A stretch of 64,000 nucleotides of DNA from Phoenix dactylifera. Lineage: Eukaryota > Streptophyta > Magnoliopsida > Arecales > Arecaceae. The stretch covers positions 10,486,480 to 10,550,479 of the forward strand of contig NC_052404.1 of NCBI RefSeq assembly GCF_009389715.1. The letters run 5' to 3'. This document shows, in pieces, positions 14,776 to 63,062 of this stretch. The position numbers and the translations under genes are program-made. The notes under the pieces were generated by a model. The model worked only from the letters and a program-made list of their open reading frames with translations, did no database searches and was not told the DNA's origin. Position 1 is the first letter of the stretch. Each line of letters opens with the position of its first letter.

Positions 14776-16338
14776 TCTGTAGTGTAAATAACATACCATA
14801 AAGGATTCCGGTCGCCATCCACTGCTCCAATAGGAGATGGCAAGTTTGTTTTTTTTCTAAATTTCTCTCACATGGATAGGTGAGAATCTGATAGCATGTT
14901 TTCCGCCCGGTAGTAATTCTTATCAGTAACTTCTAGGAGGTATGGTTGGCTTACCATGATGGTCTTGGAAAATATTACAAAATGTTAAATTCTCAGAAAT
15001 CGAAAATATTTGCAAGAGCCTTTTATAGATGATAGAAAATGTAGAATATAAGCCGCTAGAGTATGATATAGAGAGAAAGATGATAGGAACCGCCCCCACA
15101 AGCAAAACTTGGACAAAAAAAATGGAGAACTAGGGCAATTTTAACATTAGCATTTGAAGTGGTTAGTTGTTGACTAAAAACACCTTCTTCAGCATGATTG
15201 CTTGCCAAGTAAATCCTCCAAGAGTCATGGTGCCATCTTCTCATTTCTTTTTCCCTTTTCCTAGTGCCTTCGGGACCACTATGACAGCGAAATCAAACAG
15301 AACTAGAACTGTCTTAGCTTTAACCTGGCCTTGCTTTGGCAAAGGGCATCTACTCCACTTTCTTGAGGGAGTTGGTAGAACTGCATACCACTGCCACAAG
15401 CTTCATAGACTTGATGAAGATGCAAGCAAACTAGTCTGGTTTCTTAGAAGTAGAGTATGAAGAGAGGAGAATAGGTGACAGATAGAATGGCTTGCTTGGA
15501 CATGTATACTGCTGCAAGACTCATCTGGTACTTGATTACCTCAGCTTGCAAGGTTTCAATCCAAACAGAGCAGGGTTTTGTCTAACTAGAGGAAAATGCA
15601 AATGGTTGTCTCAACATCATCTGCTTGCTGCATCACATCACAATCTAAAGAACACTAAATTTCAATGTCATGCTCCTACTTTGACAAAATAGAAGTATAA
15701 ACAAAAGAAACTGTCCATCATTTGGTATAAACTTCACATTTATATCATGATTTGCTAACTGCGAGGCTCGTATTATCAAACCAATACAAAAATATAGGGT
15801 TCAATATAACATAGCGGCATGCTCAAAAAGTATACATGGTCAATGAAACAAGATCTATCCATTCACTTTACCAGAAAATCTAGCGATTCTCTGTAAAAGC
15901 ATCTTCTTGAATTGACTATGGTTTAAGAAGGATGATAGAAGCAGCAAGGAGAGGAATTCCTGATAGCTGTAGCCTAAACCTTATCACCTTACAGCTGCAA
16001 GAGGGACCGCACCGGAGCAGCAAGACCCATGATACAAGAATAGAACGGTCTGACTGACATACATGTTTCCTACCAATTGGAGAGCTTAAACAAGGCTTGC
16101 TCAAGGTTGCAGAGGGAAGAAGAGGGGAGAATTTTGTCCCCCTGCCGTATCCCAGGTGCTTGTGGTTGATGCTACTTGTTCAATTCCCCTCAAGAAGTCA
16201 AAATCTTCTAGTAATATCCTTCGGAGACAACATAAGCCTGGAATTGTTAGTGTTCAAATGGACCTAAAAACTGAAGACCTTAAGAGGCACATTAGAAGTT
16301 TAAAGAAGAGCAGTTCACTTACAGAATTCAACTGAGAG
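14776..16338. other. gene-free stretch
   Basis: Several short frames occur, but none has a recognisable product or consistent splice context. Confidence 0.35.
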
Positions 16339-16353
16339 ATGTGCACTTGACCA

Positions 16354-16406
16354 GTGATAAGAACAGACACTACACTTGATCTTAGCCAAAAGGCCGAGGA
16401 AGGTAT
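16354..16406 (-). pseudogene. retroposed 5' fragment of U2 snRNA
   Basis: Read on the minus strand from 16406, the sequence begins ATACCTTCCTCGGCCTTTTG and continues through the GGCTAAGATCAAGTGTAG segment to TTCTTATCA. That is the first 52 or so bases of U2 snRNA, including the branch-site-recognition region, with two or three changes. It stops there, so the Sm site and the rest are missing. A perfect 15-bp direct repeat, ATGTGCACTTGACCA, flanks it at 16339-16353 and 16408-16422. It is therefore a retroposed fragment and not a functional U2 gene; no USE or TATA is seen at the expected distance. Confidence 0.88.
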
Positions 16407-26925: not shown

Positions 26926-28230
26926 TTACAGCCAATCCTTCTGCTGCAGCTTTAGGGGCATGTAGACCTCGGTGAGGTACTGGAATCCGAACGAGCTGAG
27001 GGCCTGTATCTCAGCCTTCTGCCTCGTCCTCACCATCGACTCCAGCTCCTTCACCCAGCCCTCATTCCTCTTCACAAATTCCTCCTCGAGCAGGTCCTTC
27101 CCAGCTTTCACGTCCTGGTCGGTCATGGGCAGCCGGCACTGATCTGGAATCTGGTATTTATCCAGGTCGCTCGGCCGCACCCCCAGCCACTTGATGTCCG
27201 GCGTCGTCAAGTTCGAGCTGTCATACGACATGTTCTTCGACCCGCACATGTACACCGACAGGATCTTAAGGCCGTAGGGATCGCTATCAACAAGGGCCAG
27301 CACCGGCAGCTTCAGCTCAGCCTTCATCCTCTTTAAGAAAAGCCTGGTGGCGACATCGGGCTGGCCTTTAGCGGTGACAATTATGCAGGGGAATCGGTTG
27401 TAGAACCGGTCCTCCGCCAGCCGCATAAAGGCGGCGTCTTTCTCGACCAGGAGGATGAAGAGGGCATCACTCTCAAGGTTACCGACACGGTCGATGTTGG
27501 GCGGTATGGCCTTGCCGCCGATGCCCATCTTGGTGCAGTCAATGCGGTCACCATCATCGGTAAAGACAAGGCGGCCGACGACGACACCCTTCTCCGATGC
27601 CACGACATGGAGGGAGGATCGGGTGCAGCCGAGCATGCAAGATGCGTCGTCGAGCACGGCGTCGGATTGGGACTGGTCCTGGAAGAGCTTGACGTCGGTG
27701 TAGAAGAGGTCACGCTTGGTGACATGGATGTCGCGGAGGAGGACGGCGTAGACGAGGGATAGGACGCGGGCCGTGATGGTGGCCTTGCGGACCGTGGAGA
27801 GGTTGGCGAAGGCGCGGGAGGAGGACTTGTCGCGAAGGACGATGCGGTCGAGCTCGGGGACGTAGAGCTGGTTGGAGGCGGAACGGGAGGGCACGTCGAA
27901 GGAGAAGCCGCGGCCGGCGAGAATGGAGCGGGCGATGTCGAGGATGGCTCGCTCGATGGCGAGCTTGACAGAGGAGGCGTCGCAGTCGGACACCTCGCGG
28001 CAGGCGGAGGAGAGGTTGAGGTCGGAGAGGGTAAGGGTTTTGGAGGAGGAGGCGGCGGCGGACTGGGCCTCGTCGTACATGCGACGGAGGGAGGCGAGGA
28101 TCTCCGAATCAGGTTTCAGCTGCTTCCGGAGGTCGTGGGCGTGGGAGCTCCCCCTCGCCCGCGATTTTTTGGTGGCCGCCGTGGGGCCGGAGGGACCCGG
28201 ATCGGCGCGGCGCCGCTTCTTCTCCGACAT
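26926..28230 (-). CDS. TOP6A: DNA topoisomerase 6 subunit A (SPO11-3/RHL2/BIN5-like)
   Basis: An uninterrupted 434-codon frame begins at the ATG at 28230. The product matches the plant topoisomerase VI A subunit, which pairs with TOP6B (and RHL1/BIN4) to pass DNA duplexes through double-strand breaks during endoreduplication in the nucleus. The N-terminus is basic (EKKRRR, KKSRAR). The winged-helix/5Y-CAP part carries the catalytic tyrosine Y177 in RDLFYTDV. The Toprim part shows E263 in LVEKDAAF, D315 and D317 in DSDPYG, and [10 protein letters not shown] at about 287-296. All key residues are intact and length is normal for the family. It is distinguished from meiotic SPO11-1/-2 by overall motif match from memory; a comparison would confirm this. 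No intron is needed in the coding region. Confidence 0.95.
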
Positions 28231-28351
28231 CTCGGACCGAATGGGGATCGGACAGCAAGCAGCAGGCGGGAAATTTCTAGGGCTTGCCTAAAGAGCCCGG
28301 GTTTTGACAACGGCGTTATAACGATTACCCAGCCGTCAAACACCTTTCATG

Positions 28352-39080: not shown

Positions 39081-39260
39081 GCCCATTAAGAGGGTCCCAT
39101 ATGACCCTCTTACATCCTGATGAACTCAGCCCATTTACATCGTATTTAGGCCCTTAAACCTTCCACTGTCTCGTTTCGGCCCGTAACACCTTCCCTCTTA
39201 TCTTTCTCCGCCTCCGCCCCTCTCCGGCACCGCCGCAGCTGCCGGCTCCAATCTACTACA
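39081..39260 (+). promoter_or_regulatory. ribosomal-protein-type promoter and leader
   Basis: Four GGCCC/GCCCA-type site II-like motifs lie at about 39081 (GCCCATT), 39129 (GCCCATT), 39149 (GGCCCTTAAACC) and 39179 (GGCCCGT), followed by a CT-rich leader up to the ATG at 39261. Such motif clusters are common ahead of plant ribosomal protein genes. Their presence argues that the gene below is at its native promoter and is not a processed copy. Confidence 0.5.
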
Positions 39261-39857
39261 ATGACTTCCTTGCGCTCCGCCATATCCTCCTCCCTCCCAT
39301 CGATCCGCGCGGCGGTCAACCGATCGAAGCGGGAAATGGTTCGGCGGGAGATGGAGAACTGCCACCTGGTGGCCGGGATCTGGTGCCATGGCCTCACGGT
39401 GAAGCAGCTCCAGGCCCTCCGCGGCGTCCTCCCGGAGACCACCAAGCTGGTGGTGGCGAAGAACACCCTCGTCGAGAATGCCGTCGAGGGCACCAAGTGG
39501 GAGCCCCCCTCAAGCCCTGCATCAAGGGCATGAACGCCTGGCTCTTCGTCCACTCCGACGAGATCCCCCCCGCCCTCAAGCCCTACCGAGACTTCCAGAA
39601 GGAGCGGAAGCTCGTCCTCAACTACTTCACCGGCGCCGTGTTCGAGGGCCGGCTCTACGGGCCCGACGACTTCCAGGCTCTCGAGACGATCGATGCCCAC
39701 CCGGATGGAGTCGTATGCCTACCTCCTGGGCTGCCTCCAGACCCCGGCGATCTCGCTGGTCAGCACGCTGCAGTCGCCGGAGTGGGATGTCGAGAAGCCC
39801 GAGGGAGAGGGCGAGGCTGCTCCAGCCGCCGCCGCCCCGGCTGCCACCGATAAGTAA
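39261..39857 (+). pseudogene. plastid ribosomal protein uL10c (L10)-like, frameshifted
   Basis: uL10c anchors the L7/L12 stalk on the plastid 50S subunit. The sequence matches in three pieces. Frame 1 (39261-39503) encodes ENCHLVAGIW, GLTVKQLQALRG and KLVVAKNTLVENA. The next frame (39509-39688) encodes LKPCIKGMNAWLFVHSDEIP and KPYRDFQKERK. The first frame returns at 39693-39857 with METs of MPTRMESYAYLLGCLQTPAI and a TAA stop. The shifts look like +2 in a C-run (39504-39509) and a 4-base CGAT duplication near 39689. The N-terminal helix before MENCH and the C-terminal DVVxVLxAYV segment are also shortened. Either a decayed gene or poor sequence; the separate deletions favour decay. The transit peptide is short. 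Confidence 0.8.
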
Positions 39858-39963: not shown

Positions 39964-39972
39964 TTTATTGTA
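39964..39972. repeat. left target-site duplication of the MULE
   Basis: TTTATTGTA, identical to 54061-54069 on the other side of the element. Nine bases is the standard Mutator duplication length. Confidence 0.95.
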
Positions 39973-40057
39973 GGGGAAACTAATCACCGGTCCAGTGTTG
40001 GACCGGAGTATAACGAATAGTCCCTGTTGACCGAAAATGTAACTCCCGGTCCAGAGA
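39973..40057 (+). repeat. left terminal inverted repeat of the MULE
   Basis: 85 bp, inverse of 53976-54060. The only differences are at positions 8 (C/T) and 18 (G/A). It contains an internal small dyad, CCGGTCCAGTGTTGGACCGG. Confidence 0.95.
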
Positions 40058-40169
40058 CTCAGGAAACCATAATTTTCGGTCCCTGGGAGGAGAAATGTCC
40101 AAGAAAATTTGCCTAATATGCCCCGATCCAGTATTTTGAAGGCGGGAAATGGAGACGTTTGGAGTTTCG

Positions 40170-40530
40170 ATTCGGTCTGGCCAACGGAAGAGGAGATTCT
40201 GTTTGAAGGCGGGAGGAACAATGTCGTTTGGAGTTCGGCACCGATTTCCTGTTCGCGTGGCCAACGGAAGGCGGGAGAGGAAGACCGTTGGAATTCCAGA
40301 GAAGACTTTGGAGCTCCACAAGCATTCTGCTCTGTTCTTTGAGGTTCGAACGGACTGTAGGGCGGCTTTTTGGTTTGATGTCCTCTGTTCTTTAGAGCTC
40401 CACAAGCATAGTTTGTGCTATTCTGTCAGGTTCCAACGGACTGTATGCTTATCGGCCCAGCCAACGGAAGGATTTTTAGAGCAAGACCTTGGGGACCCGA
40501 ATTGGAGGCCAACGGAAGGCTTTTTGGTTT
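40170..40530. repeat. subterminal GCCAACGGAAG repeats of the MULE
   Basis: GCCAACGGAAG occurs at about 40179, 40259, 40457 and 40509, and GAGCTCCACAAGCA occurs twice (about 40310 and 40397). Short subterminal repeats of this kind are often transposase-binding sites in DNA transposons; binding here is inference. The open frames crossing it are not recognised as protein. Confidence 0.6.
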
Positions 40531-40842
40531 GAAGGCGGGAGAAGGTGTGGGGAATTAACTTAACTGTTTTCCATCTTGTTTCATTTTGCCATAGCTTGTG
40601 GGGAATTAAGTTAACTGTTTTCTTTGTTTATGAATGCCTTGTTCTGCTCCAGTGTGCCATCTTCTTCCGTTTTGCCTTAGGGTGTGGGGAATTAAGATCA
40701 GGTGTGCCTCTAACTTTGTTTTAACAGAGATATTTTGCTGATGTGCCTCTGATTCTGCACTCTTCGTCTGACTTTGTTATAACAGAGCTGAGGTCCAAGA
40801 ATTGTCGCCAAATCATTTGTGCTGATCCCTCCTATTTTCATT

Positions 40843-43227
40843 ATGATGGCTTCAAAGAACAGTAGTAGCCCGGTTTTGATGGCCATTTGTTGTTACGGTA
40901 GCGAAGCTGTTATTATTTCCATATGTGTAGACACAACTCTTGATCAAATATTCAAGGAAATAGTGGAAAGGTGGAGACATTTATCTTCTACAATGATAGA
41001 AATTAAGTTTTATATTCCAAACAAATCTAGAATGGTTGTTACGCTCATGAGCGATAAAGATGTTCATAACATGCATCAAATACATGTGAACTTAAATGCG
41101 GCAGTGATTGAGATGGTTGTTACTCATTCTCCAAGCTTGATCGAAGCTGGTGATGTGGTAATCAATACCAGGTATTCCATATTTGAAATTTTATTTTGTT
41201 CATTTCAAGCTAAAAGAACATTAATAAGTGTGCTGAAATTATGTTTATCGTTTTGTATGGACAGTGGCTCATCCCATGGTGCTGAAATTAGTTAGAGATC
41301 CAAAAATATTTCAAAGAGTAGCTCAAGTAATTTTGTCCAAGTTGTTGAAGAGACGAGAGCTGCAATTGAAGAGGAAGGAAGTCAAAGAAATTCATTGGAT
41401 GCTTGGAAAAGTTGTATAGAGGGCGTTGGTCAGGAGTTCAGGAATGTCGAAACTCTTCGTGACAGCATTTGCAACTTTTGTATCGCAAATTGCAGAGATT
41501 TTGTGTTCATAAAGAACGATCGTGAGCGACTTACTGTGGAATGTGCATATGAAGAATGTGAATGGCGTATCCATGCTTCTCGACTTGGTAATGGTGAAAA
41601 GTTTGCAATTAAAAAAATGAACGGTAACCATACATGTGGAGGAGGGATGCAAGTCCGGTCGCATCCGAAGGCTTCAAAACGTTGGGTTTCGAACATTGTC
41701 AAAGATAAACTTCAAGATATGCCATTATATAAGCCGACTGACATTGTAAAAGATATTCGTCGGGAATATGGTGTTCAATTGCCGTATCATCAAGCTTGGC
41801 ATGGTAAGGAGGTCGCTATGAAGGAGATTTATGGTGATAGATCGCTATCTTATGACCGAATTCGGTGGTATTGCGACGCCATTGTTCAAACCAACCCCGG
41901 CAGCATTACAAAGTACGAAACATGTGAAGGTCGATTCAGACGTCTGTTCATTTGTTTTCATGCTTCACTATTGGGTTTCATAAAAGGATGTCGACCTCTA
42001 ATTTTTATGGATGGGACATTTATAAAACATAAGGATGGGGGTGTATTGCTTGGCGCCACTACCAAAGATGGCAATGATGATATGTTTCCTATAGCTTATG
42101 GTGTGGTAGATACAGAAACTGATGAGAATTGGGAATGGTTTTGCCAGATTTTTAAAGAAGCTATTCATAGTTGCAGTGCGTATCATGGTCAAAAGTTCAC
42201 ATTTATGACAGATAGACATCAGGAAATTATTAAATCGGTGCCGAAGTACTTTCCTGGTTGCTACCACTCATATTGTATTCGTCATGTGAAAGAAAACTTC
42301 AAGAATCAGGTTTGCATCATAATATTGAAAATAATTTTAAGTAGAAAGTATCTAAGTAATATACCATCCGGAATGTCTGATATTTAATTGTGATCGCAGG
42401 TGCTTGTCCATTATCGTGCAGCTAACAGAAAGAGGCTGCTTGATTTAGTAAATGCTGTTGCGTATACTCCAAGGCTTAATATTTTTCAGAAGCTAATTGG
42501 GAAGCTTACATCAGAAGTCCCTGGTGCTTCCACCTTTCTCCTACATGCCAACCCCGAGCATTGGGCAAACGCAATTTTTCCGGGTCCACGCTGGGGCACT
42601 ATGACATCTAACGTGGCTGAGTGTTTTAATAGTTGGATCTTGGAGGCTCGTCATCTGCCTATCCCTCATATGGTTGACCATATCAGGCTTCAAATTATGC
42701 AGATGATGCATGAACGGCGTAATCAAGGATATAGCATTCAAACCCACCTATGTCCAGATGCTGAGAAAGTGTTACATAAAAATGCAGAAGATGGTCGGAG
42801 ATTATCCTTGTTTACGTCCAACATAATGTTATATGACGTAAAGGATACAAACTACTCATGTAAAGTTGACCTCCAGAATTGCAGCTGCTCTTGTGGCGAG
42901 TGGCGAATCTTCGGCATGCCATGTAAGCATGCTTGTGCCTGCATCGAGAAGGCCGGCAGATCCTTGTACCAATTCACTGACATTTGGTTCCAAGCTGAAT
43001 TGTATAGAACAACATATGCCGAAGCAATTAATCCAATTCCTGATATTGAGGAGCCGCACAGTGCATCTGAAGAGATTCACATTCTACCCCCTATGAAAAA
43101 GACACGTCCTGGCAGGCCTAAAAAGAAGAGAAGACCTTCTCAAGTTGAGTTAGTACGTGATATGAGATGTGGACGATGCGGGAAGCTTCGGCACAACAGA
43201 AGGACATGTAATGAGGTCATACTGTAA
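40843..43227 (+). CDS. MuDR/MULE transposase, three exons, in-frame stop
   Basis: The exons are 40843-41171, 41265-42309 and 42400-43227, with GT-AG junctions. Exon 1 resembles the PB1-like N-terminus of plant MuDR proteins. Next is the MuDR DNA-binding region (about 41450-41640; CAYEECEWRIHAS, NHTC). The MULE catalytic domain shows D at 42010 (FMDGTF), D at 42211 (FMTDRHQ), the CYHSYCIRH zinc motif and E at 42619 (NVAECF). A SWIM zinc finger CSCGEWRIFGMPCKH lies at about 42886-42930, and a CxxC...H..C knuckle near the end. If the exon 1-2 junction is as drawn, TAG at 41293-41295 interrupts the frame ten codons into exon 2. Either the copy is dead, it is read through, or the junction differs. 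The catalytic core is otherwise open. Confidence 0.88.
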
Positions 43228-43257
43228 ACAATATGGTGCTCTACTATACATTGAAGG

Positions 43258-43372
43258 TATCGAACACCTTTGGCACACCCTTGGCACACCTTTTGCACAC
43301 CCTTGGCACACCTTTGGCACACCATTGCATACAGTTTCAATCCCATGGCACGCCATGGCACACCCTGTATTC
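43258..43372. repeat. short GGCACACC minisatellite
   Basis: About six to nine units of 10-12 bases of the form CTTTGGCACACC or CCTTGGCACAC lie just 3' of the transposase stop. A lone TGTGCCATGGCACACC relative lies at about 49480 on the far side of the internal region. Confidence 0.8.
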
Positions 43373-43943
43373 TTATTTTAAATGCCATTATACTCCATGT
43401 TTTTTAATAGAAATCTGTAGAAGAAAAAAAACATCGCTTTAACCTCTGTGCACACAGTTACCTGTTACCTGCTTCTCTGCACACAGTTACCTGTTACTTG
43501 CACTCAGATATGGTTTCTGTGCACACTTAAAACTTAAGCAATCTGATTTTTTTCCCTTTACTTATCTGGTACTTTCAGATTCTAGATGGTTTAAAAGTGG
43601 TGCAATTGCAATGGCCAAATGATTATCGATGGTGCAGTCGAGAATGTATGCCTAACCTTTCATGTTTATGTTTCTTTTTCTTTGCCTATGCTGCAAGTTC
43701 ACATTACTTATATTTAGTAATTTTTTCCATTGTCGTCGCAGATGGGGAAGGATGTGGTGACGTTGTAGTAAAGGAAGACCTTTTGAAGTAAAGGAAGTTG
43801 ATTGTTGATGTTGTCAACTAATACAAATTTTGGATTATTTCAGAATTTATCAATGTGGAATACTATTAAGTTCCTTTGTCATATTAATTTTTTGATGTTA
43901 GCTGATGCTATGTCTTTTTGGGTGGCTGATTTATGTGGAGAGA

Positions 43944-44345
43944 GTCGACCCCATAACTCTCTCAGAGTATTCCAAATAGCGCCTGTGTACGCAGCCAAGC
44001 TACGAGTCGACCTCTCATCAAGAGGGAGTCGACTCCATTTCGTAGGAATCGACTCGGGCTGCCTGAGGTCGACCCGACTGATATTTGGAGTCGACCCCAT
44101 AACTCTCTCAGAGTATCCAAATAGCGCCTGTGTACGCAGCCAAGCTACGAGTCGACCTCTCATCAAGAGGGAGTCGACTCCATTTCGTAGGAATCGACTC
44201 GGGCTGCCTGAGGTCGACCCGACTGATATTTGGAGTCGACCCCATAACTCTCTCAGAGTATCCAAATAGCGCCTGTGTACGCAGCCAAGCTACGAGTCGA
44301 CCTCTCATCAAGAGGGAGTCGACTCCATTTCGTAGGAATCGACCC
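43944..44345. repeat. left GTCGAC-rich tandem array, 145-bp period
   Basis: Units start GTCGACCCCATAACTCTCTC at 43944, 44090 and 44235 (about 2.8 copies, nearly identical). Each contains five or six GTCGAC or TCGACTC sites. Frames across the array on both strands are repeat artefacts. Confidence 0.9.
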
Positions 44346-44502
44346 GTAACTCCAATAAGGAAATAAAACCTGAGGTCAATCGACTCCCTCTTCCCTTCTA
44401 TTTCCGTGGTGTCGACCTAAGTTCCCTTCCCGTGCTCCTTGCGTCTCTTCGTTCGTCGAATTCCTTACTTCCCTCCTCTCTATCTATCATCCATCCGTCG
44501 CC

Positions 44503-45900
44503 ATGCCGAGGAAGCAGGTCGTGCGGCCTTCAAAGAAGAGAAGTAATGTTCCGGAAGCAACCGAGCGAAGGTCCAAGGCAAGAAACGACGTTCCTCCTCC
44601 TCGTCCGCATGCTCCATCTCCTCCTAGGCAAGTACCCTTGGTAACTCGTCGTGTTTCTCTCGGTAGGAAAATAGATTTCGACTTCTTAGAAGGCCAGGGT
44701 TTTACCATAGGTCTGAAGCTGAAAGCCATGGGTTGGGAAACCCTATGTTCCCTTAACATTCCGACGTACCCGAACCTTGTTCGCCAATTCTATGGCAATC
44801 TCAAAACCGGAATTGCTAGCATTGAAAGTGTGGTAAACAAAACCCCAATTCTGCTAAACCCGGAAACCCTAGGGAGTCTTGTGAACATCCCAACCTCTGG
44901 TTCAACCGAAGATTTTTTAGAAAATAGAGTGTTGGGCATTCAATATCTTCTTGGCACAGAAAATGTTAGTCCACTTGAGCAAATTTCAGCCAACCGACTT
45001 ACTGTGGAAAATCGACTATTACATCATATTGTTAGCCGAATCCTCTTTCCGAAAACAGGTAGGTTTGATTTTGTGTCCGAAAGAGATATTCTTGTTATGT
45101 TCCACATTCTGAATGGTAGCCCCCTTAGTTTACCTCACCTGATGATTAGACACATGGTAGAGTCTGCCTCTAGAGCTAAGGCATCCTTGCCATATGGAAT
45201 GCTCTTAACCTTAGTCTTTGAGGAGTTCGGTGTAAATACTGAAGGGGAACCATCTACAACTCTTGGTCCTTGGGATACTTACAATGACCGGTCGCTACAT
45301 CGAATGGGTTTTCGTAAGAAAGATGGTCAGTGGATAAGAAAAGATAAAGGGAAGAGCAGTGCGTGCCATAGAGAAGAGCAGCAACCTGTCGAAAATGAAG
45401 AATCATTTCATCCTCCCACTGAAGAACCAATTGGCCAAACTCAGCAGCCCACTGAAGTTAGACTTAGTGCTGAGCAGTTCAGAGCACTAAGGGAAGATAT
45501 CGTGCAAGAGCTAAGAAATTCTAGAGATGTTGCTTGTACAGACTTGGTACCTTCCAATGCAACCGTGTGTGAATTGGTCGCTGATATGAGGGCGGAAATG
45601 GTCAGTCTTCGATGTCTTGTTCAAGGACAGTACCAGAGATTTGTGGACATAGAAGAGGAGACAAAAAAACTTCAACAATCTGTCAGAAAGGACATGGAGA
45701 ATCTGAATGAAAATGCACAGGATGTATGCGACAAACTACTACAATCACTTCATAAGATCAATCAGACTTTAGCTGACCTGAACAAGTCCTATCTCCAGTC
45801 CAACTCTGAAGTTGCAGCCATTCTGCAGAAAGTTTCAGAGGTTCTGGGTCTTGTATTGGGGAGACTGCCAAGAGCTTCTTCGAGTTTCACTGCCCCATGA
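44503..45900 (+). CDS. putative plant transposon protein with a C-terminal coiled coil
   Basis: An intronless 465-codon frame starts at an ATG in a good context (CGCCATGCC). Residues 1-50 are basic and Pro-rich. Residues about 55-285 match the 'putative plant transposon protein' domain seen in many plant repeat-associated ORFs (FDFLEGQGF, GLKLKAMGWETL, HHIVSRILFPKTGRFDFVSERDILVM, LPYGMLLTLVFEEFGV). Residues about 310-350 are Glu/Gln-rich, and about 365-455 are heptad-rich and likely coiled coil. I see no DDE triad, reverse transcriptase or protease, so its role in the element is unknown. GTCGAC-rich arrays flank it on both sides in inverted orientation, which suggests an independent nested unit. 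Confidence 0.75.
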   Translation: MPRKQVVRPSKKRSNVPEATERRSKARNDVPPPRPHAPSPPRQVPLVTRRVSLGRKIDFDFLEGQGFTIGLKLKAMGWETLCSLNIPTYPNLVRQFYGNLKTGIASIESVVNKTPILLNPETLGSLVNIPTSGSTEDFLENRVLGIQYLLGTENVSPLEQISANRLTVENRLLHHIVSRILFPKTGRFDFVSERDILVMFHILNGSPLSLPHLMIRHMVESASRAKASLPYGMLLTLVFEEFGVNTEGEPSTTLGPWDTYNDRSLHRMGFRKKDGQWIRKDKGKSSACHREEQQPVENEESFHPPTEEPIGQTQQPTEVRLSAEQFRALREDIVQELRNSRDVACTDLVPSNATVCELVADMRAEMVSLRCLVQGQYQRFVDIEEETKKLQQSVRKDMENLNENAQDVCDKLLQSLHKINQTLADLNKSYLQSNSEVAAILQKVSEVLGLVLGRLPRASSSFTAP

Positions 45901-46125
45901 TTTCTTCTTTTCCTAGAAACTAAGGTTATTTTGTCTGCAAGAGTTTAATAGATCTCGAGGAGACTCATTGTAATATATTTATGTAATGTCTACAAGTGCA
46001 ATGAAATGTTCTATTTCTGACCAACATGGCTTGTATAATGATATTTTGATTCTATGGTAATTGTGTATTCGTAACATCCAGAAGATTGCTAAATAAGGGA
46101 AAAGAAAGAATAATTAACTAGATTA

Positions 46126-46790
46126 AGGGAGTCGACCCCAGTGAATGGCGAGTCGACCCCTTAAGTGGCACAGAGCCAAGACAGAGAGCACCCAAAAACA
46201 GCCAGCGACGCCTAAGTGTCGACCTCAGGCATACTGGAGTTGACCTCTGGACATAAGAGAGTCGACTCCAGTGAATGGCGAGTCGACCCCTTAAGTGGCA
46301 CAGAGGCAAGACAGAGAGCACCCAAAAACAGCCAGAGCCTAAGTGTCGACCTCAGGCAGACTGGAGTCGACCTCTGGACATAAGGGAGTCGACTCCAGTG
46401 AATGGCGAGTCGACCCCTTAAGTGGTATAGAGGCAAGACAGAGAGCACACAAAAACAGGCAGAGCCTAAGTGTCGACCTCAGGCAGACTGGAGTCGACCT
46501 CTGGACATAAGGGAGTCGACTCCAGTAAATGGCGAGTCGACCCCTTAAGTGGCACAGAGCCAAGACAGAGAGCACCCAAAAATAGCCAGAGCCTAAGTGT
46601 CGACCTCTGGACATAAGGGAGTCGACTCCAGTGAATGGCGAGTCGACCCCTTAAGTGGCACAGAGCCAAGACAGAGAGCAACCAAAAATAGCCAGAGCCT
46701 AAGTGTCGACCTCAGGCAGACTGGAGTCGACCTCTGGACATAAGGGAGTCGACTCCAGTGAATGGCGAGTCGACCCCTTAAGTGGCACAT
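46126..46790. repeat. right GTCGAC-rich tandem array, about 127-bp period
   Basis: Six copies, with AGTCGACCCCTTAAGTGGCA at 46151, 46281, 46408, 46535, 46641 and 46768 (spacings 130, 127, 127, 106, 127). Read in reverse, the left array shows the same order of blocks (GTCGACCTCAGGCAG, then GGGAGTCGACTCC/GGAGTCGACTCCC, then a tail), so the two arrays are related and inverted. Confidence 0.88.
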
Positions 46791-49330
46791 ATCTGTGTGC
46801 AGTAATCGATAAACTGTGTGCAAAAAGCAGAAAACTGTGTGCAAAAAAAAAGCAGAAAACTGTGTTTCGGGATAAATTAAGTGTGTGCCAAGGTTAATTA
46901 AGTATGTTTCCAGGTTAATTGACTTTGTGCCATGCTCTAGGCTTACAACAATAAGTGTGTGCAAATGACACATATCTGTGTGCAGTAAACAATAAATTGT
47001 GTGCACAGAGCAGAATGCTGAACTTAACTGTGTGCACATGGCACATATCTGTGTGCAGTAATCGATAAACTGTGTGCAAAAAGCATAAAACTGTGTTCGG
47101 AAAATTGTGTGCATGGAGCAGAATGCTTAACTTAACTGTGTGCACATGGCACATATCTGTGTGCAGTAGTCGATTAACTGTGTGCAAAAAGCAGAAAACT
47201 GTGTGCAAAAAGCACAAAACTGTGTTCAGGGATAAATTTAGTGTGTGCCAACGTTAATTAAGTATGTTTCCAGGTTAATTGAGTTTGTGCCATGCTCTAG
47301 GCTTACAACAATAAGTGTGTGCAAATGACACATATCTGTGTGCAGTAAACAATAAATTGTGTGCACAGAGCAGAATGCTTAACTTAACTGTGTGCACATG
47401 GCACATATCTGTGTGCAGTAGTCGATTAACTGTGTGCAAAAAGCAGAAAACTGTGTGCAAAAAGCACAAAACTGTGTTCGGGGGTAAATTTAGTGTGTGC
47501 CAACGTTAATTAAGTATGTTTCCAGGTTAACTGAGTTTGTGCCATGCTCTAGGCTTACAACAATAAGTGTGTGCAAATGACACATATCTGTGTGCAGTAA
47601 ACAATAAATTGTATGCACGGAGCAGAATGCTGAACTTAACTGTGTGCACATGGCACATATCTGTGTGCAGTAATCGATAAACTGTGTGCAAAAAGCAGAA
47701 AACTGTGTGCAAAAAGCATAAAACTGTGTTCGGAAAATTGTGTGCATGGAGCAGAATGCTTAACTTAACTGTGTGCACATGGCACATATCTGTGTGCAGT
47801 AATCGATTAACTGTGTGCAAAAAGCAGAAAACTGTGTGCAAAAAGCACAAAACTGTGTTCAGGGATAAATTTAGTGTGTGCCAACGTTAATTAAGTATGT
47901 TTCTAGGTTAATTGAGTTTGTGCCATGCTCTAGGCTTACAACAATAAGTGTGTGCAAATGACACATATCTGTGTGCAGTAAACAATAAATTGTGTGCACA
48001 GAGCAGAATGCTTAACTTAACTGTGTGCACATGGCACATATCTGTGTGCAGTAGTCGATTAACTGTGTGCAAAAAGCAGAAAACTGTGTGCAAAAAGCAC
48101 AAAACTGTGTTCGGGGGTAAATTTAGTGTGTGCCAACGTTAATTAAGTATGTTTCCAGGTTAACTGAGTTTGTGCCATGCTCTAGGCTTACAACAATAAG
48201 TATGTGCAAATGACACATATCTGTGTGCAGTAAACAATAAATTGTGTGCACAGAGCAGAATGCTGAACTTAACTGTGTGCACATGGCACATATCTGTGTG
48301 CAGTAATCGATAAACTGTGTGCAAAAAGCAGAAAACTGTGTGCAAAAAGCATAAAACTGTGTTCGGAAAATTGTGTGCATGGAGCAGAATGCTTAACTTA
48401 ACTGTGTGCACATGGCACATATCTGTGTGCAGTAATCGATTAACTGTGTGCAAAAAGCAGAAAATTGTGTGCAAAAAGCACAAAACTGTGTTCGGGGGTA
48501 AATTTAGTATGTGCCAACGTTAATTAAGTATGTTTCCAGGTTAATTGAGTTTGTGCCATGCTCTAGGCTTACAACAATAAGTGTGTGCAAATGACACATA
48601 TCTGTGTGCAGTAAACAATAAATTGTGTGCACAGAGCAGAATGCTTAACTTAACTGTGTGCACATGGCACATATCTGTGTGCAGTAGTCGATTAACTGTG
48701 TGCAAAAAGCAGAAAACTGTGTGCAAAAAGCACAAAACTGTGTTCGGGGGTAAATTTAGTGTGTGCCAACGTTAATTAAGTATGTTTCCAGGTTAATTGA
48801 GTTTGTGCCATGCTCTAGGCTTACAACAATAAGTGTGTGCAAATGACACATATCTGTGTGCAGTAAACAATAAATTGTGTGCACAGAGCAGAATGCTTAA
48901 CTTAACTGTGTGCACATGGCACATATCTGTGTGCAGTAGTCGATTAACTGTGTGCAAAAAGCAGAAAACTATGTGCAAAAAGCACAAAACTGTGTTCGGG
49001 GGTAAATTTAGTGTGTGCCAACGTTAATTAAGTATGTTTCCAGGTTAATTGAGTTTGTGCCATGCTCTAGGCTTAACTGTGTGCACATGGCACATATCTG
49101 TGTGCAGTAGTCGATTAACTGCGTGCAAAAAAGTAGAAAACTGTGTGCAATAGGCTTACAATAATAAGTGTGTACGACGTTCTTGTAACTGATTGCATTA
49201 TTTCTTTATTTCTACGTATTAGGAAATGCTTAACTTAACTGTGTCCACATGGCACATATCTGTGCAGTAATCGTTAAACTGTGTGCAAAAAGCAGAAAAC
49301 TGTGTTTCGGGATAAATTAAGTGTGTGCGA
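46790..49330. repeat. GTGTGCA minisatellite with higher-order structure
   Basis: The basic unit is about 20 bases, ACTGTGTGCAAAAAGCAGAA and relatives. It is organised into blocks that begin GGTTAAYTGAGTTTGTGCCA at about 46913, 47273, 47525, 47906, 48158, 48539, 48791 and 49043. Block lengths are 360, 252, 381, 252, 381, 252 and 252, so two tandem 633-bp higher-order units (252 + 381) are almost identical. Past 49070 the array decays. The many roughly 64-, 85- and 107-residue frames here are artefacts. Confidence 0.92.
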
Positions 49331-49829
49331 TGGTTAATTAAGTGTGTTTTCAGTTTAAGCGACTATGCGCCATACTCTACATAAATCGGAATCCTTAACT
49401 TAACTTTGTTAAGTATGTTTCAAGCTTAATGAACCAAGCAACACTGCTGTGCCAGGGGATCTGAAACTGTGTTGCATGGTGTGCCATGGCACACCATTTT
49501 TATAGATCAAATATTGTAGTTAGCCCTAAAGAAAAAAGGCATCATAAGGTCTCTCCACATAAATCAGGCACCCAAAAAGGCATAGCATCAGCTATAATAG
49601 CGGCACGGCATGGCACAGTTAACATATGTAACTAGACATTTTATAAATCATTACAACCAATTTAGAGCACGACAAGATAGACAATAATGCCAATCATCTG
49701 AATAATACAAATGTATTCATCATAACTGTCTCATTGTTACATTACACAAAAAAAGAAAAATGTATTCATCATAACTGTCTCATTGTTACATTACACAAAA
49801 AAAGAAAATGTAGGAGTAGGTTGCCTGCT
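49331..49829. other. array remnant and 3' flank of the ULP1-like gene
   Basis: Contains degenerate GTGTGC units, a TGGTGTGCCATGGCACACC palindrome at about 49479, and a direct repeat of about 53 bp around 49716-49805 (GTATTCATCATAACTGTCTC twice). Confidence 0.6.
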
Positions 49830-52800
49830 CTAATCTCTCTTTCTACATATCTTCTCATACCAAATCCAGAAACTATCATTTGTACTGCAATGGTCATTCA
49901 ACAAAATATTGCCCGCAACCCAGCTTCTATATAAAGAGGGATCCTTGAACTGTTCCAGCAATGGTCTCGAAGTGCCCCGCATCAGTTCCTCCGCATACAT
50001 GAGCAAGTATACCCCACAGTCGAGAGTATCCGGCATTTGCTGTGGACACTCTCGAATTTCATGAATGATAGTTTCCGGGATATGGTATCCTACGTGGTCG
50101 CTTAGCCAAAATCGCAGAAATGATGCCTGCATGGATGTGAAGAATATATTATTTTAATGTACCTGTGAGTCTTAAAAAAAATGTAACAAATCTTTAAAGT
50201 GACACTCACAAATTTAATATTATACTTTGCATCATTGAAGCTCCACATAGAATTGTAGCATTGAAAACACTGCTGCTTCAAGTCCAAAACAAGTAAATAC
50301 CAATGCCATTCCATATTCATTGGAATGAATAGATATCTATAGTTTTGGAGATCGCAGAGTTGTATGTCCCCTAACCATTTTATAATACTAGGCTGCAAGG
50401 ACTGTAAAATACTTTTTGTAACATCAGCAGTTACCTCACCAATGCCCAATAGATGTCGATTCACGGCAGCCTACAAAATTCATTATGTCAGAATACACAT
50501 AATTTGTAGGAGAGTCTTAAAAAATTTTGGGTGATTCAAAACCTGTATTTCACAACGCAAGAATATAGATGGGTTATCAACAGACTCAGTCTTCTCTCGA
50601 TGCCAAAGCTCCATGACACGAAAGTAAACGTTGACGACCTGCATTTATTAAAAGAACTCCATCAAATAGAACCGTTGAGAAGAGAAATACATGTGAGGTA
50701 TGTCTTCAATTAACCTACATCACTGCGTAGTGGCCCATCATGTAGGAGCTGCTCTATAGCATCACCGTTGCATGATGGTTTCAAAGTATCTGCATCCTCC
50801 CAAATGGTGTGCCTACAAAATTCATTCCAATATTTAAGCTACTTACATAGTGATAAATGTGAAATTGCAAACTTAATTTAGGTAACTTACTCCGTGTGAT
50901 TTTCTTGAAGGAAGAAATCAATAGCTTCTTCATGGTACATAGGGAGCACACCTTCTCCCTTCCCGTAATACATATGTTTCCTTGCCATTTTCAGTTTACT
51001 CTTTGGCGTCTCCACTCTTTCAACATCAATGAATTTAGTGGTTTCTTCTAAAAGCTAAGTGAAATGAAACGAGAATACAACAATTTTACTTACCAAAGAA
51101 CATGATATGGTAGAACAAAATTGCATATGTACGCAGAATATTTAAGGAACAGAACAAATTTGTATACCTCTATAGGGGGTGATGTTTCTTTGTCGAGTGG
51201 AATTGACTTGCGGAGCTCCATAAGTGCAGTAGTGATAGGCTCCAATAATTTACTCGGCCGAGTGGGCAAATCCTCCTTTTTAATTGCTAGTGCCCTACTA
51301 CCTTCACCTTGAGAGGCTATTTTTTGTTTCTTTTTTGCCCTTCTATAAGTATTTGGAAAGTGTGCTATGGCCTTTGCTTTCTCTGTTGCCTTTCGCTCAC
51401 GTGCTCCAAACTTCACGCGCCGGCATAAGGAGGAAACATATTTCGAGGAGATAGGTCCAACTTCTTTCTCACCCTCAACATCAGTGGCCCAAATAACCTG
51501 ATAACAATATGCATTTCATCTAATAAACAAGATAGTATAATGATAAAAAATTTTTTTATCAAAATCAAATAAATACATACCTCCACCTCATCTGCACTAT
51601 CCTGAATTTCATCTTTCTCCACTACACCTTTGTCCTTAGCTTCAACTGCAGTATGCTCTTCACTCACCTAATAATGAGTTGTATTTAACAAATAACAACA
51701 ACCATGATCCCCACGACAACATACTTAATAATTCATCAAACATTGCTTACCTCGGTAAAATCTGTATCATGCTTAACATTTTCGTCATCCACTAAGAGAC
51801 CATTATCTCGGAGGACCTTCTCAATTCTGGACACCCTCTTATCAACCAAAAACAAATACCTCTCAGCCACTTTTAAGCGGGTATGTAAGCTTTCCAATGT
51901 AGGTCCTTCACTCTGGCTGGATGATGGAAACTAAAACAACACAATTATCCAATTTAGAGTATGTCTTTAACTAAGTGCCACCAAATGAAATTAAATGTGT
52001 ACCAAGTGGTTATAAGTTTGTGCCGCAAAATAAAAGGTGCGTGCCATATGGAAATAAATCTGTGCCAAGTACTTGTAAATGTGTACTACCTGACTTTTCT
52101 CTTTCGGAGCTTCTAATATTGGCCTTCCTCGCGAGAGAAGGTGCAACTCCTCCTTTCTAGGCTCTAGCTTCTCGATCACCTGTCGCAAGCAAAAACTTAA
52201 GTCTTGCATCATGTAAAAATAAATGTGATGTTACAAATTAATATTCAAACCTGAAATTTTTTTAAGTTCTTCATAACTTTGGCAATCACGTCCACCTTGC
52301 GAGAAAATTTGGCATTGCTCCAACGCAATAGACGTGGATACATAAACGGTGGCCGGTGCCTGCCTAAAATGATATTCGAATGCTCAACAGCCCATACCTG
52401 CCAAAAAACAATGTGAACATCAAATTTCAACACAATATATATCTTAACAATGAAATTTAAAAAAATATAAAGATGCTTTCCACCAAAGCCACCGTGCATC
52501 CATCCATATATCCACCACATCCATTCCCGCTGATGTTCCTTCTCCGGACACTCTCGGATATAGTAGGTAGCTGCTGCCGAATAAAAGCAAAAACGGCAAG
52601 ACCCCAACTATATGAACCTAACCGCCCTAAATCATCAATATATGAACATAATGCCTTTGGAATATTGTAGTGTACAGTTGGAAACAGAATAGTGACAAAG
52701 AGGTATAAAACCCATAATTTGGTAAAATCCTCTACATCTTGTCGTCCTCTCTTTCCAACTAGTATTTGTAATCTATTTTCTATTGCATCCCTACCGGCCT

Positions 52801-53185
52801 TTTTGTGGTCACCATCAAAAAAACGGGTGATAAGGTCAGAAGTAACCCTCCCCTCTCTATACAATTCTACTTCATCACCCGGGGCACTCAAACCTAGGAT
52901 GAGTGCAAACTCACTCCCTAAAAAAGGCACTAAAACTTTACCAAACCAAAAATCTTCTTCGACATCATCCCAAAAAGAGACCAAAGTGTCTAGGACAGGC
53001 CTACTCTGCTTGATATACGGCAAACTTAGCATATGTCCAAAAGGAGTTGCGGTCACCCTATCATTCTGCTCCCGAGACATAGACTGCACAAGGGTGGCAA
53101 TAAATTGGACATAGCGGCTGAAGTAGCACCTTCCATTGACCATATTATTCGGGCCAACAATTGGAGCCATATCAAATGTCTGCAT
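49830..53185 (-). CDS. MULE-carried ULP1-like cysteine protease (C48 family), multi-exon
   Basis: Supported minus-strand exons include 53185-52484, 52397 to about 52252, a coiled-coil exon at about 51932-51753, a basic linker at about 51500-51170, 50470-50210 and 50126-49830, with several short exons between. The first exon resembles the DUF1985-like N-terminal domain usual in MULE ULP1 proteins (PFLGSEFALILGLSAPGDEV). The last two hold the protease fold. His lies in MEWHWYLLVLDL, the usual Asp position reads Asn (CYNSM), and Gln and the nucleophile Cys lie in CPQQMPDTLDCGVYLLMY. Such proteins are predicted SUMO-protease relatives of unknown target. The start is uncertain because an acceptor-like TGCAG overlaps the first ATG. 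The gene converges on the transposase. Confidence 0.8.
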
Positions 53186-53975
53186 CAAAAATATTAATGA
53201 AACACGTTATCCATAAAACAAATCTTTCAAGAATGCATTGTCAAACAAATAATAAAGATCAAATTAAGAATCACTGCAGGGTAAAATTAAAGATAACAGC
53301 AACCTTATATCATGTATTCGCAGGAAACTATACCAATATATCACCTACCAATAATCTTCCCTGGGCGAAATCAATAATCGATTCCATAGCATTCAAAAAC
53401 GAAATCAAAATATTATTCCGAACAAAAAAAACGGAAAGCAAGAGAGATTACGGTTTACCTTCCACTATAGCCAGCATTATGGTTCTCAAAAAGTAAGAAC
53501 AAATCTTCCCTAAGCCAAATCATTATTTCATTTCGTAACATTCAAAACCCAAAAGAAAAATTTCTTCGGAAAAAATATTTGGGAAGCAATATTGATTAGG
53601 GTTTAGCTTCGATAATAGCAAGCATTATGGTATCCACATTGGGCGAACGGAACCTTACCTGCGATTCGGAATGCTTATCGGGGCGGACTCGATCGGCAGG
53701 AAGACGACTCCGTCGACTGGAAGAGGACTCCGTCGACACGAACAGGAATCGTTCGAGAGGAAGAAGAAGAAGGGGTTCTTTCCGAAGGCGAAAGAGAAAT
53801 TCTTTCGGTCGAGAGGGAAACGAAGACGAAGAAGGGTTTCTTCCTGGGTACAGAGGAAGAAGAAAATGAGAGGAAGAGGAAGAGGACTCGACCGAGCGAA
53901 AGAGGAGCAAAGGAAGCCGGAAAGCCCAACGGATGAGAAAAGGGTAGTTTCGTCACCATTTAGAAAGCCAAAAAC

Positions 53976-54060
53976 TCTCTGGACCGGGAGTTACATTTTC
54001 GGTCAACAGGGACTATTCGTTATACTCCGGTCCAACACTGGATCGGTGATTAATTTCCCC
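53976..54060 (-). repeat. right terminal inverted repeat of the MULE
   Basis: 85 bp, inverse of 39973-40057, ending TTTCCCC at 54060. It is followed directly by the second TTTATTGTA at 54061-54069. Confidence 0.95.
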
Positions 54061-54227
54061 TTTATTGTATTGATTTTTTCCCATTTTCCTTTTTTTCGTT
54101 TGAAAATATGATTCTGCTTCCCTATCATTGCAAAAAATAAAAAAGGAAAAAAAAAAAGAGAGAGAGATTTTGCTTTTTCTGCTGTACCTATACTACTCAT
54201 CATTCAGGACTATTGAGCGCAAGTATC

Positions 54228-61699: not shown

Positions 61700-62529
61700 C
61701 TGTTCAGTAGGATTTGGGACTCCTACCCCCCCAAGACTCGAGGCAGTTCTTGCTCTTTTCTCCCAATCGTTTTCTTCTTCTTCTTCTCCTCTCTTCTTCT
61801 TGATCTCGGGCGGAGGTCGCAGCACCTTGGATCTCCGCCGGGTTCTTGCTCTCCTCCCCTCGCAGAAGCCTGGACTTTGATCGGGCAAGAAGGTATACGA
61901 ATCTTGTTTTTCCTCTCTAGATTTGTTTCAGGAACTGGAGATTTTTTCGTTCTTGAACCGATTTCGAATTCTTTGGGTCTTTTCGTGTCTTTTTTTTTTT
62001 GGCTTAAACCCTTGTTTGTTGGGATCTCTTGTCTCCGTGATTCTTGGTTTCTGACTATTTTGTGCTTTCATTTTTCTTTTTAATCGATGGATGCATGTGG
62101 TTTGGAGGCGAACTAGGGTTGTAATCTTACATAAGTGCCCTGTTTCTTGAACAATGGGGAAGAGTGATTTCTTGGGCATCATGTGCGTCTGAAACGTTTT
62201 TTTCTTTTAACAACTTGCCTCTGTTGGTGGAATCTTTAGGTTTTGAATGTGAGTTAGAGATCTAGCTGGGTAACGGCTGCTGTGTGTCGGTTAAATCTAA
62301 GAGAGAGTGATTTCTAGGGCATTGGGTTCATCAGAGAAGGTTCTTTCTCCAATATTGTCGTGACATTAGACTCAGTTCTTTGCTTATGTGATCTAGTTCG
62401 TAGGTCGGAGTTGTTAGTCAAGAGGTGGTGTTCTTGAAGGCAACGGAATGTGTGCGTTCTCTTCTTGGACAAGGAAGCGTTTTCCACTGCTCATTCCAGC
62501 ACCATTATTGGTCATTTTGAGTCTGGTTG
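61700..62529 (+). promoter_or_regulatory. 5' leader of the PRR gene with a probable leader intron
   Basis: A CT-rich leader (about 61780-61870) is followed by a strong donor, AAGAAG|GTATACG, at 61892/61893. T-rich intron-like sequence continues to about 62.4 kb. A likely acceptor is CTCATTCCAG at 62499, 30 bases before the ATG; others are possible. A spliced leader is common in this gene family. Confidence 0.5.
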
Positions 62530-62905
62530 ATGGGAAGTGTTGATGAAGCAAGCCCTCATGGGGCTGAGAACCAAGGGCCGGCGGAACTAAACTATCACAT
62601 CCGTGATGAGCACAAGGAAGTTAGGGATGGCCTTGTGGGGGAGGGCCAGGGGCTTTCAGAAGAAGATGAGTCAAGGATTAACGAGGTCACACAAGATTTG
62701 AACTACAACCAAGAACGTGATGTGGCTGCCCCCCTGGCACATCAGCCTGGTCCACAGAAACTGCAGCAGCAGCAGCAGCCACCAGGACCAATGATTCAAT
62801 GGGAGAGGTTTCTTTCTGTTAGAACACTGAAGGTCCTGCTCGTAGAGAATGATGATTCCACCCGGCAAGTGGTCGGTGCATTGCTCCGTAACTGTAGCTA
62901 CGAAG
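62530..62905 (+). CDS. PRR37: pseudo-response regulator, PRR7/PRR37-like, first coding exon
   Basis: Starts MGSVDEASP at 62530. The exon ends at 62905 with donor CGAAG|GTAAGC (phase 1) and encodes 125 residues. After an acidic N-terminus and a short Gln run (CAG)5 at about residues 79-83, the sequence MIQWERFLSVRTLKVLLVENDDSTRQVVGALL starts the pseudo-receiver domain, typical of PRR7/PRR3/PRR37/PRR73 proteins. These are nuclear repressors in the circadian clock (repressing CCA1/LHY) and affect flowering time. The rest of the receiver and the CCT domain lie beyond the window. PRR7/37/73 paralogues cannot be told apart from this exon alone, so the symbol is provisional. The next exon is not within the remaining 1.1 kb. 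Confidence 0.9.
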
Positions 62906-63062
62906 GTAAGCAGCTTAACTTTTATTTTTATTGTCCCTATATGGAAAATCTGCACAGAATTTTATATTCCTTTCAACTGATACATTTACTTGCATGCTGA
63001 ACTGTTGACTTTGTTGTGAAGCATTAACTACTGTTCTGTTTTTGCTATATACATGGGACTGT

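Follow-up and report, generated by a model that had tools for sequence, protein, structure and literature searches.

How does a DNA transposon come to carry, between well-preserved ends, a gene and repeat arrays whose relatives appear to lie in retrotransposons? This question is raised by a 64,000-nucleotide stretch of Phoenix dactylifera (NC_052404.1, positions 10,486,480 to 10,550,479; hereafter the window), which contains a Mutator-like element (MULE) of 14,088 bp at 39973-54060 (the window copy, W). We consider it likely that W is a VANDAL-like modular MULE, that is, a mosaic of three modules with a retrotransposon-related cassette, an exchange of that cassette between families, and a VANC-like array system. 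The initial annotation had described a complete multi-gene MULE with 85-bp terminal inverted repeats (TIRs) differing at two positions and a perfect 9-bp target-site duplication (TSD), and we verified the ends and the TSD. It overlooked that one gene, which it called a coiled-coil transposon protein, forms together with the surrounding GTCGAC arrays a cassette of separate history.

The two TIRs of W mismatch solely at positions 8 and 18, and the 9-bp TSD, TTTATTGTA, is exact. Assuming independent bases, ~1e-36 inverted pairs of this quality would be expected in 64 kb, and a chance origin of the ends is excluded. A repeat scan of 30-64 kb of the window lists two inverted pairs of at least 40 nt, and the TIRs are the longer one. 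With its 9-bp TSD, long TIRs, and a mudrA-type transposase that has DNA-binding, DDE, and SWIM domains, W is a genuine, well-formed, TIR-bearing MuDR-type MULE, one insertion of a multi-copy family. The transposase, the ULP1-like protease, and the further transposon protein expected in this one element each have a Pfam domain; the third of these is Transposase_32 (PF20167, 2e-21; 77.4 bits versus a curated cut-off of 45). Its tandem arrays (~0.4 kb, 0.7 kb, and 2.3 kb) are present as described, with a total nearer 3.4 kb than the 4 kb first estimated.

To find further copies, we searched the host assembly (773,078,369 bp in 2391 contigs) with the first 100 bases of the element and considered the best 40 of 54 candidates. 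Fourteen of the 40 listed matches pair into seven two-ended elements, namely W and six copies labeled by C-numbers: C105 (14,255 bp), C14 (12,039 bp), C6 (11,710 bp), C59 (11,483 bp), C581 (6,611 bp; internally deleted), and C82. Among the matches listed, all seven two-ended copies have perfect 9-bp TSDs, each of them different. Because the six further copies carry TSDs of their own, the two ends of W belong together and do not stem from different elements, and the seven separate TSDs point to transposition of the family. Apart from a single G, the TSDs consist of A and T alone (62 of 63 letters), so this TIR family has a strong A/T target preference; the TSD of C59 is all A and is weak evidence on its own. 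C82 spans 43.1 kb (25934-69045; TSD TTTATTTTA); its right part contains copia pol together with a gene like Transposase_32 (42.8%), probably as nested insertions. The initial annotation had also proposed to look for an empty site. Neither this nor a paralogous site was found: when the flanks of W were joined and searched against one assembly, where alleles are not visible, the two flanks in the window were the only matches. Nine further loci (L020-L028) hold relatives that are diverged or incomplete. Among these, L025 (1011-5699, on C4) is a shorter copy outside the seven; one of its ends is good, the other is degenerate, and a run of T flanks it on either side.

The seven elements do not all share the same contents. 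The cassette, a Transposase_32 gene between two GTCGAC arrays, is present in W, C105, and C14 (30-39 GTCGAC motifs) and absent from C6, C59, and C581 (3-4 motifs). It recurs in two whole elements of a sister family with diverged ends, E10 (on C10; 13,278 bp) and E17 (on C17; 13,463 bp), whose gene order is that of W: transposase, Transposase_32, and antisense Ulp1. C17 shows a perfect TSD, TTTTATTAA, and in C10 the flanks are identical at 7 of 9 positions. Between W and E10, synonymous divergence (dS) is 0.035 for Transposase_32, whereas it reaches 0.360 for the transposase (ratio of nonsynonymous to synonymous divergence, dN/dS, 0.24), 0.83 for the DUF1985-like exon (dN/dS 0.20), and 0.93 and 1.01 for the two C48 exons (dN/dS 0.34 and 0.32). 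This tenfold inequality is irreconcilable with one common ancestor; hence, as far as coding divergence can tell, it demonstrates an exchange of the cassette between family E and the W/C105/C14 branch. The cassette would have moved from E to W, since it is absent from C6, C59, and C581. It is this absence that carries the direction, because the Transposase_32 protein tree leaves C173 and C1 without a settled place beside two clusters, whose support is under the starred level. Among five sister-family copies compared, C173 is closest to W (98.8% DNA identity; dS 0.019).

The borders of the cassette hint at how the exchange may have come about. A 45-bp sequence occurs in a single orientation in C6 and C59 (two direct copies each) and in C581 (one copy), whereas in W and C14 two copies in opposite orientation enclose the segment; at the threshold used, C105 has just the right-hand copy. 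The neighboring AACTGTGTGC array of W is itself inverted relative to C6 and C59. Where the cassette meets this array, TGGCACA (46783-46789) is common to the cassette units and the array, much as in a microhomology junction. Taken together, the junction looks like template switching during repair.

We then asked where relatives of the cassette lie. Of 87 listed Transposase_32 places, 33 are at least 61% identical to W, and 22 of these 33 (W, C105, and C14 included) have a MULE transposase less than 10 kb upstream on the same strand. A further Transposase_32 gene, on C487, has stops of its own and belongs to a MULE whose transposase is 77% identical. Distant relatives were found behind a copia pol in all eight places checked (C45, C3, L027, L019, C1163, C169, C908, and C175), whereas the gene of W sits within a MULE, without any pol 3' end. 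The relatives on C45 and C3, 42% and 41% identical to the W gene, are third open reading frames (ORFs) behind copia pol, and C45 matches both RVT_2 (1.4e-58) and PF20167 (5.9e-15). The distance from pol end to gene start is 502-560 bp in five cross-listed places (C45, C1163, C169, C908, and C175), drawn from the best rows of lists with 10,546 and 21,501 first-look candidates. The arrays are shared as well: GTCGAC palindromes at 20-22-bp spacing lie on both sides of the gene in MULEs and in three inspected retrotransposons alike, this spacing making up 19/31 of the short GTCGAC spacings in W, 27/47 in E10, 16/32 in C45, 22/37 in C3, and 16/28 in L027. The palindrome context differs somewhat: W and E10 often have GAGGTCGAC, which is all but missing from C45, C3, and L027.

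At the DNA level, the cassette shares only short stretches with C45 and C3, namely array motifs of 29-38 bp and patches of coding sequence of up to 87 bp, so that it is the protein, its position, and the layout of the arrays that tie the cassette to retrotransposons. By these three features, the cassette has its relatives in the third ORF of Ty1/copia retrotransposons and in the arrays on either side of that ORF. "Sirevirus-like" is here a label taken from the third ORF alone, without a pol tree; PF20167 has also been reported in an extra ORF of sunflower Athila, in the passage available (PMC11728184). PF20167-type genes are very abundant in the host genome (~10,000 first-look candidates), and L038, L039, and L027 are copia retrotransposons in which GTCGAC arrays accompany a third ORF of this type. 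An AlphaFold model of Transposase_32 from one sequence was unusable (mean predicted local distance difference test score, pLDDT, 40.9).

The third part of W consists of an antisense gene and the longest array. Ulp1 (PF02902) was found in two minus-strand exons, at 4.4e-6 and 2.4e-4, just above cut-off. The exon resembling DUF1985 and PMD scores under the Pfam cut-off for each, with 28.9 versus 35.1 bits and 25.7 versus 34.9 bits, respectively, at an E-value of 1.3e-6 for DUF1985. The array is built on AACTGTGTGC, which occurs 34 times in W and not at all in E10 or E17, whereas AACTGTGTTC occurs 10 times in W and 69 and 72 times in E10 and E17. The E10 array likewise has a 21-bp phase, so that the prevailing motif changes by one letter between families while the phase is kept, and both motifs are absent from the window outside the element. 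In Arabidopsis, VANC proteins are described as binding short motifs in non-coding tandem repeats, protein and motif diverging together (PMC5735166), and an anti-silencing model has been put forward for them (PMC5735166, PMC10398659); KIU proteins are reported to be VANC-like with Ulp1 (PMC13317346). The AACTGTGTGC and AACTGTGTTC arrays resemble the target arrays of the VANC/VANDAL system, a suggestive parallel, and by analogy we propose the AACTGTGTGC array as the target of the element's own DUF1985/Ulp1 protein.

The transposase matches PF03108 (6.5e-17), PF10551 (8.4e-18), and SWIM (PF04434; 1.6e-5), each above its cut-off. Its exon limits were deduced from the open frame, GT-AG borders, and indels in relatives, and the three exons give 733 codons that are open throughout in C105 and C14. 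In W, codon 120 is TAG (41293-41295). This stop is absent from the seven copies compared, which have TGG (all five same-family copies: C105, C14, C581, C6, and C59) or TCG (E10 and E17). W is thus probably non-autonomous, although the TAG may be a sequencing error or a polymorphism. Other lesions are stops in C581 and C6 and a frameshift in C59.

W had been called young on account of its near-identical ends, an argument that does not hold. The TIRs of C105 share the two mismatches of W, those of C14 have none, and those of C59 have 13 in 85. Because mismatches are shared among copies, TIR differences predate the insertions or were rewritten by conversion, and TIR identity is no clock; dating W in this way was ruled out. 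Relative youth of W rests instead on unique sequence, where identity on the left and the right is 99.1% and 99.6% to C105 and 99.1% and 99.4% to C14. Identity to C6 and C59 is 96.3-97.8%.

Table 1. Features of the element in the window (W)
Feature	Position	Strand	Remarks
Left TSD	39964-39972		TTTATTGTA
Left TIR	39973-40057	+	85 bp
Transposase exon 1	40843-41171	+	weak PB1-like match (PF00564, 0.0047), below cut-off
Transposase exon 2	41265-42309	+	DBD_Tnp_Mut and MULE DDE domain; contains TAG
Transposase exon 3	42400-43227	+	SWIM zinc finger; C-terminal zinc-knuckle-like CGRCGKLRHNRRTC (knuckle by eye)
Internal 45-bp inverted repeat, left copy	43899-43943	+	end of transposase-side sequence
5' GTCGAC array of cassette	43942-44343		145-bp units; palindromes often 21-22 bp apart
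Transposase_32 (PF20167) gene	44503-45900	+	465 amino acids, open
3' GTCGAC array of cassette	46124-46789		
AACTGTGTGC array, 21-bp phase	46783-49075		higher-order period ~252 bp; degenerate units to ~49420 by eye
Internal 45-bp inverted repeat, right copy	49550-49594	-	
Ulp1 (Peptidase_C48) last exon	49830-50126	-	PQQ...DCG stretch
Ulp1 exon	50210-50470	-	HW stretch
DUF1985/PMD-like exon	52484-53170	-	both Pfam matches under cut-off; presumed first coding exon of the antisense Ulp1 gene
Right TIR	53976-54060	-	85 bp
Right TSD	54061-54069		TTTATTGTA

Outside W, the window holds a ribosomal L10-like stretch at 39150-39857 (+), perhaps a pseudogene; PF00466 matches at 1.6e-8 in the frame 39150-39533, the likeness appears by eye to switch frames, and the other two frames have no Pfam match. 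The left TSD of the MULE begins ~107 bp past it. A single frame of 453 amino acids at 26926-28287 (-), with TOP6A-Spo11 Toprim (3.7e-67) and TP6A_N, is a topoisomerase VI A/SPO11-like gene. A U2 small nuclear RNA match lies at 16253-16406 (-; 52.3 bits, exceeding the gathering score of 46). The open frame at 62521-63000 (+), without a Pfam match at 0.001, is reminiscent of how a pseudo-response-regulator (PRR) clock gene begins.

We suggest the following model. A first module, the transposase and the TIRs, would move by cut and paste with 9-bp duplications. A second, the antisense DUF1985-like/Ulp1 gene and the AACTGTGTGC array, would act like Arabidopsis VANC/KIU, its protein binding the array of its own family and lifting DNA methylation. 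The third module, the cassette, might have entered the MULE lineage long ago and would later, recently, have passed from sister family E to the W/C105/C14 branch. Template switching in gap repair could account for the inverted neighboring array, the 45 bp of transposase-side sequence, and the 7 shared bp. W itself, having lost a full-length transposase to the stop codon, would need help in trans.

Several observations weigh against this model. Likeness to VANC is weak at the sequence level, where both the DUF1985 and the PMD match stay under the Pfam cut-offs. KI-MULEs are described as non-TIR, whereas W has 85-bp TIRs, and we therefore do not file it as a KI-MULE. In 11 of the 33 closer Transposase_32 places, no transposase lies less than 10 kb upstream, and the absence of the cassette from C581 is possibly part of its large internal deletion. 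We found no link to a retrotransposon closer than ~42%, and there is no pol in the 1.5 kb upstream of any of four intermediate copies (62-79%); three of these four upstream stretches hold 5-11 GTCGAC motifs and one holds none. With identity at only 41-42%, the step between MULE and retrotransposon must be an old one, and which way it went is judged from abundance and the literature, not from a rooted tree. Lastly, the Transposase_32 gene is frameshifted in C105 and has a stop in the C922 copy, and six pairs give no significant purifying selection on it in MULEs (dN/dS 0.54-0.81, p 0.08-0.32). These pairs are W with E10 (dN/dS 0.54, p 0.08) and L044 (600 bases) with five MULE copies (dN/dS 0.64-0.81, p 0.16-0.32). 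The remaining pairs range from 0.07 to 1.27 with no significance test, whereas the retrotransposon pair C45-C3 gives 0.19 (p 1.6e-29).

The last of these points bear most directly on whether the gene and its arrays do anything for the MULE. Transposase_32 may be a passenger in MULEs: selection indistinguishable from neutral, the frameshift in C105, and the two-ended insertions of C6, C59, and C581 without the gene would all suit inert DNA that was brought in by gap repair, much as Pack-MULEs capture sequence, and that does nothing for the element. On the other side, the frame is open in W, C14, and all five sister-family copies read, arrays are retained on both sides of the gene, and the gene recurs near transposases, including in the C487 MULE. 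We regard a passenger as quite possible, at somewhat below an even chance. A related doubt concerns the arrays, which could be ordinary satellite-like expansions without a protein partner. Their lengths do vary strongly (AACTGTGTGC occurs 34 times in W, 10 times in C14, and 3 times in C581), yet the 21-bp phase in both families, the one-letter motif change, the absence of the motifs elsewhere in the window, and the published VANC precedent make this a doubtful account, though by no means a negligible one.

Two further alternatives concern the history of the cassette. An ancestral family might have had the cassette and C6, C59, and C581 might have lost it, with no exchange between families; the E elements do show the same gene order, but the low dS of Transposase_32 beside that of its neighbors demands exchange, and we hold simple loss to be very unlikely. 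A nested, retrotransposon-derived element inserted whole into the MULE, and not part of it, would explain why the foreign segment is bracketed by an internal 45-bp inverted repeat. This repeat proved to be transposase-side MULE sequence, which ruled out a whole nested element between its two copies. W has no pol 3' end, moreover, and the same cassette is found in E-family MULEs, so that we give this alternative hardly any credence. Of a different kind is the idea that Transposase_32 and the GTCGAC palindromes, with their 21-bp phase, form a self-contained module of protein and target site, which evolved in copia elements and was taken over whole by the MULE. We think this improbable; if true, W would run two such systems, its own DUF1985-Ulp1/AACTGTGTGC pair and a borrowed one serving, for example, as an anti-silencing or transcription switch.

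MULEs are known for copying host genes. Like a Pack-MULE, W has foreign sequence between its TIRs; unlike a Pack-MULE, it has its own transposase gene, and its cargo is related to mobile elements and not to a host gene. With Arabidopsis KI-MULE/KIU and VANDAL (VANC) elements, it shares the mudrA-type transposase, the antisense Ulp1 gene with a DUF1985-like exon, and non-coding tandem arrays whose short motif varies from one related family to another, and it departs from them in its extra Transposase_32 cassette and in a DUF1985 match below cut-off. Its gene order recalls Abermu Type I of barley and relatives (PMC9168764), described as having a transposase, a same-strand second ORF, and an antisense third ORF, and the long TIRs and mostly A/T-rich 9-bp TSDs of Abermu are shared as well. 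For the genes, the likeness is one of order only. Abermu measures 8.2 kb in barley, and its ORF2 and ORFR are given no known function in the passages on them (PMC9168764). The length of W, which had seemed unusual against the 1-8 kb cited for most MULEs, is matched by the grapevine families Mutavine-18 and Mutavine-1, of 16.2 and 17.7 kb, with TIRs of 230-263 and 70 bp (PMC2528002). Mutavine-18 is marked there as including ULP1, and the passages on both families mention no Transposase_32 cassette (PMC2528002). In having a PF20167 gene behind pol, the retrotransposon copies checked are like Ty1/copia Sireviruses with their envelope-like or additional third ORF; repeat boxes are reported near the envelope-like gene of Sireviruses (PMC2829016). 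Unlike such a third ORF, the gene and arrays of W lie inside a DNA transposon, at 41-42% amino-acid identity. Large MULEs (16-18 kb), MULEs with Ulp1, and three-gene MULEs with an antisense ORF are thus already known, and it is the mosaic that is unusual. The titles, abstract openings, and passages surveyed gave no published description of a Transposase_32 or envelope-like gene in a MULE, which is weak evidence of absence.

What W adds is a MULE carrying a module, a gene with its arrays, that is related to another class of mobile element and appears to have been exchanged between two MULE families. If the arrays are protein targets, the two sister families, with AACTGTGTGC versus AACTGTGTTC and a shared GTCGAC cassette, would offer a test of VANC-type anti-silencing and motif co-evolution outside Arabidopsis. 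They would also give a first handle on the role of PF20167-type third ORFs in retrotransposons.

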